Origin: an uncultured Candidatus Saccharibacteria bacterium
GTDB taxonomy: Bacteria; Patescibacteriota; Saccharimonadia; Saccharimonadales; Saccharimonadaceae
Assembly (NCBI GenBank): GCA_946548715.1
Contig: CAMNPZ010000001.1
Coordinates: 1-64,000, forward strand
DNA: 64,000 nt
Direction: 5' to 3'
Positions 18,303 to 43,357 of this stretch are shown here, piece after piece (the stretch's first letter is position 1; every line of letters begins with the position of its first letter). Made by a program: the position numbers and the translations under genes. The notes beneath the pieces are model-generated. The model worked only from the letters and a program-made list of their open reading frames with translations, was not told where the DNA came from and did no database searches.

Positions 18303-20819
18303 ATGAGTAATAGATACAATCCTTTAGAAATCGAATCCAAATGGCAAGCCAAATGGGAAGCCGACCAGCCTTTCAAAGCAACCGAAAACCCCGCCAAGCC
18401 CAAAATGATGCTCGCCGAAATGTTCCCTTATCCTTCCGGCGCCGGCCTTCACGTCGGCCACGTCCGTAATTTTACCATCGTCGATGTACTCACTAGATTC
18501 TATCGTCAACAAGGCCTCAACGTCTTGCGCCCCTTCGGCTACGACACCTTCGGCCTCCCCGCTGAGAACTACGCCATCAAGACCGGCACCGCACCCCAAG
18601 ACATCACCAAATCCAACATCGCCAACTTCAAGAAACAAGCCAAACGCCTTGGCTACGCCATCGATTGGTCTCGCGAGATTAACACTTCCGACCCTGAGTA
18701 CTACAAATGGACCCAATGGTGCTTCCTCCAACTCTATAAGAAAGGTCTCGCCTACCAAAAAGAATCCTACCAATGGTGGTGCCCCGAAGACCAAACCGTC
18801 CTTGCCAACGAACAAGTCGAAAACGGCCATTGTTGGCGCTGCGGCCACGAGGTCGAAAAGAAGAAAATGAAACAATGGTTCTTCAAAATCACCGAATACG
18901 CCGACGAACTCCTCGAAGACATCGACTCTCTCGACTGGCCCGACAAAATCAAAACCATGCAGAAAAACTGGATCGGCCGCTCCGTCGGCGCAGAAATTGA
19001 TTTCGACATTGTTCGGGGAAACATGAAGGGCGAAAAGCTTATGTCGGATTCGAGGTCATCCGGAGGCTGGCAAGCCGAGGGTAAGCGCGCCGTCCCCATG
19101 GCGATGGGCGACGGCGACGCGGGCCGAGAAGACGATATAAGTTTTCGCCATATCAAGGTTTTCACGACAAGGCCCGACACAATCATGGGCGCCACATTCT
19201 TAGTAGTCGCTCCCGAATACCCCGGCCTCGATTTCCTCGTCACCGACGACACCCGCAACGCCGTCTCGAAGTACAAACAAGACGCCCTCAAGAAATCCGA
19301 AATCGAACGCCAAGAGAACAAAGAGAAAACCGGCGTTTTCACCGGCTCCTACGCCATCAATCCTGCCACCAAGGAGAAAATCCCCGTTTACGTCGCCGAC
19401 TATGTTTTGGCCGGCTACGGTACCGGCGCTATTATGGCAGTCCCTGCCTACGACGACCGCGACCGTGAATTTGCCGAAAAGTTCGATCTCCCCATCGTCG
19501 AAGCCAAACTCATCGACCGCGACCTCTACGGCACCCCGAAGACCACTTACAAAATGCGCGACTGGCTCATCTCTCGTCAGCGTTACTGGGGTTGCCCCAT
19601 TCCTATCGCATACGACAAAGATGGCAATCCTCACCCCATTCCCGAAGACCAACTCCCCGTCGTCCTCCCCGAAATCAAAGATTACAAACCCGACAGCACC
19701 GGTCGTTCCGCCCTCGCGAAAGCTAAGGATTGGTTAAAAGTCCAAATCCCAGTCAAAGACGAGAAAACCGGCGAAACCCACATGGAAGAAATGACTCGCG
19801 AAACCGACACTCTCGATGGCTACGCCTGCTCGTCTTGGTACCTCTGGCGCTATGCCTCCCCACACGACCAAGACCACGCCTGGGACCCCGAAGCTATCAA
19901 GTACTGGGAGCCATTAGATTACTATTGTGGTGGCGACCATGCTGTAGCCCACTTATTATACGTCCGTTTCTGGTGCAAATTCTTTGCCGACCTCGGCTAT
20001 CTTCCTTTCCGCGAACCAATCAAGCATCTACTATATAACGGCTACATTAATGCTCCCGACGGCAAAAAAATGAGCAAAAGCAAAGGTAACGTCATCGACC
20101 CGCTCGATGTTATCAACGACGGCTACGGCGCCGATACTTTAAGAACCTACGAACTCTTCATCGGCCCTTACAACCTCGACGCCGCTTGGGATCCACGTTC
20201 CGTGGGAGGTGTATATAGATTCCTAAATCGTTGCTGGAATTTATGTTTCGATAACGAAGATAAAAAAGCATTAGATTCCCGACTCGGGGCAATGCGGAGC
20301 GCGGCAGCGCGAGAGTTAGCGCCGTCCGCCCGTGGCGACGGGCCGGACGGACGCGGCCCCGAGTGGGAAACTAATGCTTTAAGTATTCGACATCGTACTA
20401 TCAAGAAAGTAACCGAAGATATCTACCATTATCAATTCAACACCGCCGTCGCTGCACTCATGGAATACGTCAACGAGCTATATAAGCAAGGCACCACCAA
20501 AGACGACCTCGTTATTCTTGCGAAGCTCTTAAAACCCTTCGCTCCGCACCTCGCCAGCGAAATGTTGGAGCACCTCGACGCCACCGACGAATGGCCTACT
20601 TGGGATGACAAATATCTCACTTCCGATACCGTCACTATTGTCGTCCAAGTCAACGGCAGGCTCCGCGCCACCTTTACCACCGATGCAAGCGACCTCGACG
20701 ACGAGCAAAAAATCCTCGACCTCGCCCTCGCCGACAAAAAGATTCAGAAATATACAGAGAACGGCATCAAGAAAACCATCTTCATCAAGAAGGCCAAACT
20801 CGTCAATATCGTCGTCTAA
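18303..20819 (+). CDS. leuS: Leucyl-tRNA synthetase with two palindromic-element insertions
   Basis: Class Ia synthetase that charges tRNA-Leu. The HIGH region is PYPSGAGLHVGHVRNF (about residues 39-54), a zinc knuckle CPEDQ...CWRCGH follows, the CP1 editing domain includes FTTRPDT, and KKMSKSKGNV is the KMSKS loop. The 838-aa protein carries two extra stretches not expected in LeuS: about residues 243-282 (start of the editing domain, before the FTTRPDT block) and about 654-693 (start of the anticodon-binding domain, before HRTIKKVTED). Both are encoded by a related GC-rich palindromic repeat (see separate entries). Each joins the reading frame without a stop, so the enzyme is presumably functional. 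Confidence 0.97.
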   Translation: MSNRYNPLEIESKWQAKWEADQPFKATENPAKPKMMLAEMFPYPSGAGLHVGHVRNFTIVDVLTRFYRQQGLNVLRPFGYDTFGLPAENYAIKTGTAPQDITKSNIANFKKQAKRLGYAIDWSREINTSDPEYYKWTQWCFLQLYKKGLAYQKESYQWWCPEDQTVLANEQVENGHCWRCGHEVEKKKMKQWFFKITEYADELLEDIDSLDWPDKIKTMQKNWIGRSVGAEIDFDIVRGNMKGEKLMSDSRSSGGWQAEGKRAVPMAMGDGDAGREDDISFRHIKVFTTRPDTIMGATFLVVAPEYPGLDFLVTDDTRNAVSKYKQDALKKSEIERQENKEKTGVFTGSYAINPATKEKIPVYVADYVLAGYGTGAIMAVPAYDDRDREFAEKFDLPIVEAKLIDRDLYGTPKTTYKMRDWLISRQRYWGCPIPIAYDKDGNPHPIPEDQLPVVLPEIKDYKPDSTGRSALAKAKDWLKVQIPVKDEKTGETHMEEMTRETDTLDGYACSSWYLWRYASPHDQDHAWDPEAIKYWEPLDYYCGGDHAVAHLLYVRFWCKFFADLGYLPFREPIKHLLYNGYINAPDGKKMSKSKGNVIDPLDVINDGYGADTLRTYELFIGPYNLDAAWDPRSVGGVYRFLNRCWNLCFDNEDKKALDSRLGAMRSAAARELAPSARGDGPDGRGPEWETNALSIRHRTIKKVTEDIYHYQFNTAVAALMEYVNELYKQGTTKDDLVILAKLLKPFAPHLASEMLEHLDATDEWPTWDDKYLTSDTVTIVVQVNGRLRATFTTDASDLDDEQKILDLALADKKIQKYTENGIKKTIFIKKAKLVNIVV
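19029..19149. repeat. GC-rich palindromic element, copy 1, inside leuS
   Basis: About 121 bp. Ends are inverted: GGCGAAAAGCTTATGTCG at 19029-19046 against CGATATAAGTTTTCGCC at 19133-19149 (a gap and few mismatches). The core holds an inner inverted pair around CGCCGTCCCC-ATGGCGAT-GGGCGACGGCG. It is far more GC-rich than the flanks. The core and the AAAAGCNTTA left end match copy 2, and both copies are read in the same frame (shared DSR near the start and GDG..GR in the second half). Confidence 0.8.
20264..20381. repeat. GC-rich palindromic element, copy 2, inside leuS
   Basis: About 118 bp. The left arm (20264-20290) and right arm (20356-20381) are almost perfectly complementary over 25-26 nt: AAAGCATTAG.TTCCC.ACTCGGGGC on each strand. 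The core contains a second stem CCGTCCGCCCGT / ACGGGCCGGACGG. Core GC is about three quarters, against a window that looks near 43 percent. It aligns with copy 1 over the core (GGAG..GGCA..GCGAG.GT.AGCGC.CCGTCC and TGGCGA.GGGC..GACGG.ACGCGG). Confidence 0.85.
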
Positions 20820-25411: not shown

Positions 25412-25785
25412 GTACGCCTTCTTATTCCCGAGTACACCCTGGTTAAAGTGGTTTTCTATAGCCAACCCAGCAACCCTGCTTTCTTCGCATAAGAATGATT
25501 TGTTTTGCGTAATTCTTATCATAATCCCAGTCATACGAGCGCTCATCCTGAGTAAAGTATAGAAACATCACGCATCAGGGTGGCAAGAATCGCATTGCTT
25601 CATAGGAATCATCGCAACCTGCATAAGGCGCGAGCATCTGACGGATTATGTAAGAATTACTAGCAAAACAAGTCCAGCGAAGAAAGCAGGGTTGCTGGGT
25701 TGGTTGTAATAATGCACACATTAAACCGCGAACGAAGCACTCATACAATCACAACCTAGTGTTATCGCCAATACAAAGCTCTTAG
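25412..25785. other. Convergent intergenic region holding a long palindrome
   Basis: This 374-nt gap between two convergent genes is mostly filled by the inverted repeat listed separately. Beyond that I see no promoter or convincing ORF. Confidence 0.6.
25462..25703. repeat. Long imperfect palindrome between FISUMP and CHAP genes
   Basis: Left arm 25462-25527 and right arm 25643-25703 are complementary over about 60 nt. The outer 27 nt are perfect (CCAACCCAGCAACCC then TGCTTTCTTCGC against its complement), then a bulge, then TTGTTTTGC, TAATTCTTA and ATAATCC pair with their complements. The 115-nt middle has weaker pairing. It may act as a two-way terminator for the convergent genes; its size suggests something more. 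Confidence 0.8.
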
Positions 25786-40954: not shown

Positions 40955-41869
40955 ATGGATAATAACAAAGTCATGATTGTCGGTACTGGGAATGTGGGCG
41001 CGAGTATCGCTTTCGGTATCATGAATCAGCGCACCGCAGTCAATGAAATCATCTTAACCGACATCATCGCCAAAGACGCCGAAGGCGAAGCTATGGACCT
41101 TCGCGATGCTCTTGCCGTCGCTCCAAGTTACGTCAAAGTTAAAAATGGCACCTATAAAGACGCCCGCGATTGTGACGTGGTAGTTATCACCGCTGGCGCC
41201 GCACAAAAACCAGGCGAAACTCGCATGGAGCTCCTCGCCAAAAATGTCAACATCCTTCAGGGCATGATCGAACAAATCATGGCCTCCGGTTTCAATGGAA
41301 TCCTCCTCATCGTCACCAACCCCATGGATGTATTAACTTACTATGCTTTCAGATTTTCTGGCCTCCCCGCCGAAAAAGTCATCGGTTCTGGCACCGTCCT
41401 TGACTCCGCCAGACTCCGCACCCGCATCGCCGGTTATCTCAATGTCAACCCAAAATCCGTCCACGCTTACCAAGTCGGCGAGCACGGCGACACTGAATTA
41501 ACCCTTTGGTCCCTCGCCGACCTTGGCGGCCAATCCATCGCTAAACTCCTCGACCGCAATATTCGTTCCGACATTTCTGACTACGTCCGCAACGAAGTCT
41601 ACGACATTATCGAGAAAAAAGGTGCCACTTATTACGGCATCGCCACCTGCGTCATCGACATTTTGAACTGCATCTTCAACGACGAATTGCGCGTCCTTCC
41701 AGTTTCATCCTACGATAATTTCTCCGACACTTCTTTCGGCTGGCCCACCGTCGTCGGCCGTACCGGCATTATCCGTCGCCTCGACCTCAAAATCTCCGAG
41801 CACGAGGGCATCGAACTCCAAAAATCCATCAATACTCTTAAAAAAGCAATTAGTTCAGTAAGGCTATAG
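40955..41869 (+). CDS. ldh: L-lactate dehydrogenase
   Basis: NAD-dependent enzyme that reduces pyruvate to lactate, the likely redox sink of a fermenting symbiont. Rossmann motif VGTGNVGASIA (residues about 9-19), Asp at the end of beta-2 (LTDI) for NAD rather than NADP, QKPGETR where Gln marks lactate rather than malate specificity, and the catalytic GEHGDTE. 304 aa is a little short of the usual 310-320. The TAG stop lies inside the left arm of the downstream palindrome. Confidence 0.94.
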   Translation: MDNNKVMIVGTGNVGASIAFGIMNQRTAVNEIILTDIIAKDAEGEAMDLRDALAVAPSYVKVKNGTYKDARDCDVVVITAGAAQKPGETRMELLAKNVNILQGMIEQIMASGFNGILLIVTNPMDVLTYYAFRFSGLPAEKVIGSGTVLDSARLRTRIAGYLNVNPKSVHAYQVGEHGDTELTLWSLADLGGQSIAKLLDRNIRSDISDYVRNEVYDIIEKKGATYYGIATCVIDILNCIFNDELRVLPVSSYDNFSDTSFGWPTVVGRTGIIRRLDLKISEHEGIELQKSINTLKKAISSVRL

Positions 41870-42020
41870 CTAGAGAGTTTCGAAACATTTTGAAATCGCC
41901 CGATAAAATTTACAACAGTCACAGACGAGTAGCTGATACTGAAATATCAGGACGAGTCTGCCTGACCTGTTGTAAATTTTATGCGGCGAGATTTCAAGTT
42001 AAGAAACTCTCTAGCTATAG
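41864..42020. repeat. Long imperfect palindrome between ldh and exonuclease I genes
   Basis: About 157 nt. The ends pair perfectly for 18-19 nt (CTATAGCTAGAGAGTTTC with its complement at 42003-42020), then TTGAAATC and TAAAATTTACAACAG pair with their complements, and a small inner stem CTGATA-CTGAAA-TATCAG forms the apex. It fills the space between the two convergent stop codons and includes the ldh stop. It probably serves as a two-way terminator. Confidence 0.8.
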
Positions 42021-42022
42021 TT

Positions 42023-43357
42023 TTACTGCAATGATTGCATATATAAGAGTAGTTCTTGTTTAATAAAGTCGTCCTTCACTTGCTCGAGCTCCGCCATAAA
42101 TCTAGGTGCTTGTCGCTTCAACCGCTCTGTACGATATTTTTCGTATGCCTCCATTTCCGAATCCGACAAAGTTTCCGGGAAATTCCGGCCTTTGTAATGT
42201 AACAACAATTCCGGCAATCTCTCATCAATAAAATCTGGATGAAAATCCGTTAGCTTCGACGGCTCTGCATTCCGCACCGCCGACACCTTAATTCTGTCCC
42301 TATCATTCAGAAACCCATCATAGAGCGCCGCCTCCGGCTCCACCGCCGGCGGAAACTCCGGCCGCTTTTCATACTGCCCACGCATCTGCTCCGCAAATTC
42401 CGGATGGCTTAGCAAAGTTTTGAGATTGTTCTCTACTATTTCCTTCGTCAATCCTATCTTTTTCCATCCATCTCCCGACTCCAACACCCCCATCGGCGCC
42501 ACCGCCGGACACTTGTTGTAACACAATTCCTTTACGATTGGGAAATAAGATTCAGGACTCTGTTTCAAAAGTAATTCCAAATCATAACGCAAGTCAAATA
42601 CCAGCACATTCCCATTTCGCCCAGGAGCTAGCGGAAACACCACCGTCGCCTTATTATACTCATTCGAATATCGTCCTGAAGCATATACAAACGGTTGCGG
42701 CTGCGCCAAGTTCACTAATCGCTGCACCGCTCGTTTATCACGCATCTTTAATAAATAGTCAAACATCTTAGGCTGTTTGTCGCGTATCAACTTCGCCACT
42801 GCTATTGTGGCATACACATCCGACAACGCATCGTGCGCATGCTCATGCGACACACCGTTTAATTTCGTAATCAATTCCAACCGGTTCGTTGGCTTGCCAT
42901 CCTCCCGAAATGGCCATTCAATCCCCTCAGGTCTGAGCGCCCGCGTCAACCTCACCACATCCAATATATCCCACCGTGACCTTCCGTCCTTCCATTCCCA
43001 TTCATAGGGGTCATAGAAATTCCGCCACAAAGTCGCCCGCATAAATTCATCATCAAATCTCACCGTATTATATCCCACCGCTACAGTATTCGGCACAAAT
43101 ACTTCCTCCGTCACATATCGACAAAACTCCGCCTCGCTTATTCCATCCATCAAAGTTTGCTGCGGCGTAATTCCTGTCACCGCTATCGCTCCTGGACTCG
43201 GTAAGGCATCGTCTGTCATTTTCACTAGTACATTTACTGGTTCACCCACTGGCGCGAGTTCCATCGTTGTCCGCTGTCCCGCAAACTGCATCAGCCTATC
43301 TTCTCGCGGATTCAATCCTGAAGTTTCAAGATCGTAAAAGAAAAATGTTTTATCCAT
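42023..43357 (-). CDS. sbcB: Exodeoxyribonuclease I
   Basis: 3'-5' single-strand DNA exonuclease of the DEDDh family (444 aa), used in repair and recombination. The DxE motif is FFYDLETSGL (residues about 6-15); VGYNTVRFDDEFMR and HEHAHDALSDVYATI supply the second D and the H-x4-D site. The ExoI-specific SH3-like and C-terminal parts follow. A TGATAAGAA-like element lies just upstream of the ATG. Convergent with ldh. Confidence 0.92.
   Translation of the reverse strand: MDKTFFFYDLETSGLNPREDRLMQFAGQRTTMELAPVGEPVNVLVKMTDDALPSPGAIAVTGITPQQTLMDGISEAEFCRYVTEEVFVPNTVAVGYNTVRFDDEFMRATLWRNFYDPYEWEWKDGRSRWDILDVVRLTRALRPEGIEWPFREDGKPTNRLELITKLNGVSHEHAHDALSDVYATIAVAKLIRDKQPKMFDYLLKMRDKRAVQRLVNLAQPQPFVYASGRYSNEYNKATVVFPLAPGRNGNVLVFDLRYDLELLLKQSPESYFPIVKELCYNKCPAVAPMGVLESGDGWKKIGLTKEIVENNLKTLLSHPEFAEQMRGQYEKRPEFPPAVEPEAALYDGFLNDRDRIKVSAVRNAEPSKLTDFHPDFIDERLPELLLHYKGRNFPETLSDSEMEAYEKYRTERLKRQAPRFMAELEQVKDDFIKQELLLYMQSLQ

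Follow-up and report, generated by a model that had tools for sequence, protein, structure and literature searches.

The leuS gene, which encodes leucyl-tRNA synthetase (LeuS), was examined in the window, the whole 64,000-nucleotide stretch of DNA that was analysed (GenBank accession number CAMNPZ010000001.1; coordinates 1–64000), and was found to contain two palindromic inserts. The window is part of a Saccharibacteria genome of 782 kb (26 contigs; 95.6% complete), and the best matches to its LeuS are from Saccharibacteria of ruminant gut metagenomes. The features of the locus, in window coordinates, are as follows.

18303..20819, + strand: leuS, hosting both copies; uninterrupted reading frame with the HIGH-like (HVGH) and KMSKS motifs preserved
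19029..19149, + strand: copy 1, whole palindromic element (arms and core), bounded by the outermost pairs of the fold scored below; sense orientation, core phase 0
19029..19051, + strand: copy 1 left arm, sequence unique
19128..19149, + strand: copy 1 right arm, complementing the left arm
19054..19129, + strand: copy 1 family-A match to covariance model R1 (76 nt; E 7e-15; sequence was in the model training)
19062..19120, + strand: copy 1 conserved 59-nt core; hairpin 1 at 19065–19076 with loop GGCA, hairpin 2 at 19085–19120 with loop GGCG and bulged C and A
20265..20380, + strand: copy 2, whole palindromic element, bounded in the same way; sense orientation, core phase 1
20265..20290, + strand: copy 2 left arm, sequence unique
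20356..20380, + strand: copy 2 right arm, complementing the left arm
20288..20363, + strand: copy 2 family-A match to model R1 (E 3e-15; sequence was in the model training)
20296..20354, + strand: copy 2 conserved 59-nt core; hairpin 1 at 20299–20310, hairpin 2 at 20319–20354

Two palindromic inserts that leave the leuS frame open had been proposed in a preliminary description made from the sequence alone. Both are real and their coordinates were exact (outermost predicted pairs 19029/19149 and 20265/20380), and the frame is open through each. The fold of copy 1 had a z score of -7.8 relative to dinucleotide shuffles and that of copy 2 a score of -9.2, with 0 of 200 shuffles matching either fold. 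The alignable core that had been reported was recovered as a segment of exactly 59 nt, without indels, in 18 copies from the same genome and 9 copies from relatives. However, the left-end motif AAAAGCNTTA that the two copies had been said to share is a coincidence, because the arms are unique to each copy.

When compared with the Thermus thermophilus LeuS (PDB 1h3n), insert 1 was located between chain residues 236 and 242, where it takes the place of ~5 linker residues at the editing-domain junction. In the AlphaFold prediction, pLDDT was below 50 at LeuS residues ~241–281 (copy 1), a loop between strands 227–239 and 284–289, and at ~662–687 (copy 2), a loop between helices 632–662 and 687–709. 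As the mean pLDDT was only 68, the placement in loops is taken as supporting evidence only. The LeuS of the window also lacks, between residues 402 and 403, ~39 residues (IEKPEG...CYHGEG...INSG type) that are present in the T. thermophilus enzyme and in seven more distant Saccharibacteria.

A search of the genome with each copy and with a covariance model, as the preliminary description had proposed, gave ~27 model matches at E≤0.001, far above chance, that form one family (the best include copies used in training). The core consists of two hairpins with loops GGCA and GGCG, the second with a bulged C and A. In an alignment of 22 core sequences, 99.2% of cells were paired and 67 were double-change cells, and G-U was almost absent from the hairpins (one cell); the covariation score was 0.435, compared with 0.141 for shuffled and ≤0.068 for slid controls. 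In a scan for palindromes, two contigs yielded 16 hits and their shuffled versions none. No family in Rfam matched the element, and its assignment to a known structured RNA family was rejected.

In the own and related genomes together, 49 of 55 distinct copies were located within ORFs of ≥150 aa and leave them open. Copies in genes occupy both orientations and five of the six frames (sense phases 1, 2 and 0 with 19, 7 and 4 copies; antisense phases 2 and 0 with 12 and 7), and the same core is present in about 20 unrelated genes. Hosts in the own genome include leuS, valS, uvrD, priA, rarA/mgsA, uvrB, an M1 aminopeptidase gene, topA, queA, der, ligA, gatA, trmD and tgt, nine of which were identified using Pfam and the others named from their sequence. 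The five real copies outside genes are located ≤~40 nt after a stop codon in four cases and ~90 nt beyond the leuS frame in the fifth (L091); a sixth non-ORF copy (L020) is a duplicate cut by the edge of the fetched locus. The net length of inserts at the LeuS sites was 57–132 nt.

A TAG codon that closes sense phase 0 was present in 36 of 51 other copies and in 0 of the 4 copies read in that phase (Fisher p = 0.011). The counting of open frames is partly circular, in that the frame used was defined as the longest spanning ORF. Stop avoidance and open frames are what a translated insert requires, and translation in the cell is inferred from them.

The model matched at E≤0.001 in 20 of 151 sampled genomes from the GTDB family of the host, and 8 of the 10 genomes of the same genus in that sample, the own genome included, were positive, with 3 to 26 copies each. 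In a sample of 380 genomes covering the phylum, five members of this GTDB family matched and no match was found outside it. The TopA site was empty in 24 of 30 same-genus loci. At LeuS, 73 loci were compared, with 20 filled and 52 empty at site 1, and 33 filled and 38 empty at site 2. Homologues had been described as free of the inserts, which is correct for many LeuS loci but not for those filled at one or other site.

The inserts at the LeuS sites often belong to other palindrome families, and the linkers of Der also bear several families. The ranking of Der loci started from a query that itself bore an insert, which favoured alleles with inserts, and the frequency of Der inserts is therefore no measure of prevalence. 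Sites in LeuS, Der, TrmD, LigA and RarA have been filled recurrently across relatives, and at one TrmD site and LeuS site 1 the orientation and frame differ between genomes. The mobility that had been inferred from two related copies is supported by presence and absence among relatives and by identical cores in unrelated genes, though neither of the two kinds of mobilising enzyme sought was found in the own genome.

Most alleles keep complementary arms by compensated change. Decay of the palindrome was seen in L146 and in L032, an ortholog of LeuS copy 1 in which the frame is kept, and L077 and L151 look like core-deleted derivatives with the arms left. Among loci counted as empty at LeuS site 1, L050 and L073 carry short inverted repeats at the insertion point, which may be scars of lost elements; L060 has none.

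The arms of any one copy are complementary over roughly 15–50 nt. However, between copies with 100% identical cores the arm identity was 0.37–0.56, against a shuffled background with a mean of 0.38 and a 95th percentile of 0.53. Self-complementarity at empty sites was no higher than elsewhere in the gene (mean percentile 0.40 for TopA, 0.45 and 0.58 for LeuS), and therefore the arms were not pre-existing targets; as the empty TopA and LeuS sites are at background, insertion into palindromic sites already present was rejected.

At LeuS site 1, the left flank in the empty locus L060 is GCAATTGTTCAAGACTC, and L075 has this flank with one change (GCGATTGTTCAAGACTC) together with a near-complete inverted copy of it on the right. 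This is a reverse-complement copy of adjacent sequence that is absent from the unmutated allele, as expected if arms are copied at the site, though clear cases are few and the strains are not near-identical. In the filled alleles L043, L052, L055, L062, L068 and L090, reverse-complementing the conserved ATAGAGTTT-type codons on the left gives the NSI codons on the right. L050, which is counted as empty, has this relation too and may be the remnant of a lost element. As no clean near-identical filled and empty pair was found (the closest pairs at LeuS site 1 have ≤88% of flanking bases in common), the insertion boundaries and any target duplication are undefined.

Arms from 82 alleles contained 2413 Watson-Crick pairs, 57 G-U pairs and 75 A-C mismatches. 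In 16 ortholog or paralog pairs, not all of them independent, 33 compensated double changes were observed versus 44 one-sided changes, where ~3 doubles would be expected by our estimate if the arms changed independently, and mismatches between orthologs or paralogs were 11 G-T (G-U) versus 8 A-C. Selection for pairing in the mRNA would favour G-U, and was rejected as there is no excess of G-U over A-C, indicating that complementarity is kept at the DNA level. Watson-Crick double changes without an excess of G-U intermediates are the pattern looked for under template switching, and they fit that process as described elsewhere (PMC8794818, PMC6649704).

Bulges in the arms lie at a more or less constant distance from the core (~9 nt in one of the subtypes, ~20 nt in the other), a regularity not expected from plain copying, and they may mark a recognition feature. 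The inner arm bases adjoining the core are alike within a subtype. In addition, the valS copies L007 and L012 have part of their arms in common, with three compensated differences, indicating that the core is on occasion accompanied by its arms when it moves or is duplicated.

The leuS inserts are probably copies of a mobile, non-autonomous palindromic element with arms that are made at each site and kept complementary by template switching, and a probability of about 0.7 was assigned to this reading. Such an element would stay in genes and be read through in frame, adding ~25–40 residues to the host protein, and gene residence would be tolerated because most frames contain no stop codon and because the element lands in loops. 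The moving part would be a structured core of ~59–76 nt with two hairpins in a three-way junction, and transposition as its mode of spread is inferred. The outer arms would not be carried along but made at each site by inverted copying of the flanking sequence. Template switching between the arms during replication, itself inferred from the pattern of arm changes, could then keep them complementary and extend them outward into native codons. Movement of the core is also presumed to depend on a factor that is supplied by the host or acts in trans. The narrower proposal that only the core of ~60–76 nt moves, and that the inverted repeats are built from host coding sequence and grow outward by template switching, remains tentative and is held at somewhat less than even odds; if it is true, essential proteins have their loops and adjacent codons rewritten by the element.

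It is possible, though unlikely, that the whole unit including its arms transposes in the manner of a Rickettsia palindromic element (RPE), with the arms diverging later and the insertions merely tolerated. The partly common arms of the two valS copies and the likeness of inner arm bases within a subtype would be expected in that case. However, where cores are identical the arms are no more alike than background, and divergence by mutation would also have altered the core and broken the complementarity. Alternatively, the insertions may be old and mostly immobile, with old locus-specific arms, and gene conversion that stops where homology ends may have homogenised their cores. Identical cores with unrelated arms and the recurrent sites in five proteins across relatives are consistent with this, and inversion across the arms could produce the differences in orientation at the TrmD site and LeuS site 1. 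Gene conversion is thus a real rival as an account of core identity, but it leaves the filling of new sites unexplained, and presence and absence are widespread among relatives and other families often occupy orthologous sites; as an explanation of the whole it is rated improbable.

The strong covariation of core and arms and the highly stable folds could also reflect a hairpin that acts in RNA, as a regulatory or processed RNA or an excised intervening sequence, with pairing selected in the mRNA. This is considered very unlikely, as the arms show no G-U excess over A-C (57 versus 75) and the core hairpins only one G-U cell, the use of both orientations means that mRNAs carry different strands, and Rfam holds no matching family. 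Excision in particular would not need the frame to be kept, and it is made unlikely by inserts that keep the frame and avoid the stop codon in the frame used. The preliminary description had allowed that the inserts would be ordinary lineage-specific LeuS loops, with no mobile element involved, if all relatives had the same two insertions with conserved protein sequence but without an inverted repeat, or if no further copies existed. Only L032, with its decayed palindrome and intact frame, points in this direction. At a given site, relatives may have an insert or lack it, and its orientation, frame and family vary among them; the same core also recurs throughout the genome, in about 20 unrelated genes, as well as in related genomes. 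The possibility of ordinary loops is effectively refuted.

RPEs (Ogata et al. 2000, 2002; reviewed in PMC2229807 and PMC10969869), which had been named as the precedent, are the known case of in-frame palindromes. Like them, the Saccharibacteria elements are palindromic repeats of ~105–150 bp that comprise several families, lie in frame in unrelated, conserved housekeeping genes, are presumed to be read through, and also occur outside genes. However, terminal inverted repeats common to copies, as in RPEs, are missing, the arms of copies with identical cores being at background identity. The elements described here are in another phylum, have a conserved 59-nt core of two hairpins, use both orientations and five frames, and belong to different families that repeatedly hit the same gene loops. 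Each site has its own arms, which stay complementary; in RPEs, by contrast, the identity of the repeats is reported to be lost as they age (PMC6649704). The precedent is thus apt as a description of how the element works, and it is best called RPE-like in action without being filed as an RPE, to which no sequence was compared. The protein-coding palindromic repeats of Wolbachia (Ogata, Suhre & Claverie 2005, cited in PMC2229807) are likewise in bacterial protein genes, in an unrelated host lineage; no sequence comparison was made.

Coding palindromes are also known in mitochondrial genes of Nematomorpha, where long inverted repeats have arms actively kept complementary and template switching was proposed, but no common mobile core was reported and the arms encode conserved protein regions (PMC6649704). 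Perfect hairpins are documented to be both generated and preserved by template switching (PMC8794818), and the quasipalindrome mutations that it causes resemble the present case in that inverted repeats are made and homogenised with Watson-Crick double changes (PMC8794818, PMC8604942). However, that is a process and not an element, and in Saccharibacteria it seems to be coupled to a repeated core. The REP/REPIN sequences with RAYT (Y1) transposases and the mitochondrial hairpin elements (PMC2800124) are similarly small GC-rich hairpin repeats spread genome-wide, but REPs are extragenic and depend on Y1, whereas 49 of 55 copies here are in genes and the own genome has no Y1 transposase. No paper on protein-coding palindromes in Saccharibacteria or Patescibacteria was found in the literature searched, and the best reading is a mobile, translated palindromic element with site-made arms that is new for the phylum, its translation not having been measured.

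The search for a mobiliser was limited to Y1 transposase (PF01797; RAYT/TnpA) and reverse transcriptase (PF00078). Neither was found in the own genome (95.6% complete), and both were rejected as resident mobilisers; reverse transcriptase was present in 12 of 20 same-genus genomes. SbcD was over the cut-off in 0 of 20 same-genus genomes and in 8 of 14 controls. In other bacteria, SbcD is part of a nuclease that attacks hairpins, and the apparent absence of SbcCD would let long palindromes persist.

The host is a tiny, host-dependent bacterium with dozens of hairpin copies in frame in essential genes. In this reduced genome ~20 housekeeping genes are touched by one family alone, the same loops are occupied by several families in different relatives, and hairpin-templated mutation in coding DNA is naturally recorded in the arms. 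The system therefore offers a direct test of how perfect stems originate and persist, how far essential enzymes tolerate repeated loop insertions, and how a genome is affected when the palindrome nuclease SbcCD is lost.

Palindromes other than those of this family were also seen. The scan, which covered ~53% of the own genome (416 kb), identified 54 palindromes with a score of at least 15, 30 of them within ORFs; compared with 0 in shuffles of two contigs (134 kb), the genome is unusually palindrome-rich. An intergenic palindrome of 219 nt from another family (window coordinates 41833–42051) has kin in the own genome at C2:52114, C2:76673, C6:26960 and C10:10682 (a shorter match), with an alignable core and 88–93% identity over up to 129 nt. 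The intergenic palindrome at 25462–25703 has copies at C17:11082 (89% identical) and C11:27942 (81%), and the central sequence of the long intergenic palindrome at 30–229 is very similar to one at C9:22398. Nested elements were also found, in which a further palindromic stretch (of the GATGGGTCGGCGACTT type or resembling it) splits the second hairpin loop of the element but leaves the frame open, namely L018/L019 (C2:62530-62775), L016 (C8:14535-14743), L025 (C11:15021-15248) and L154.
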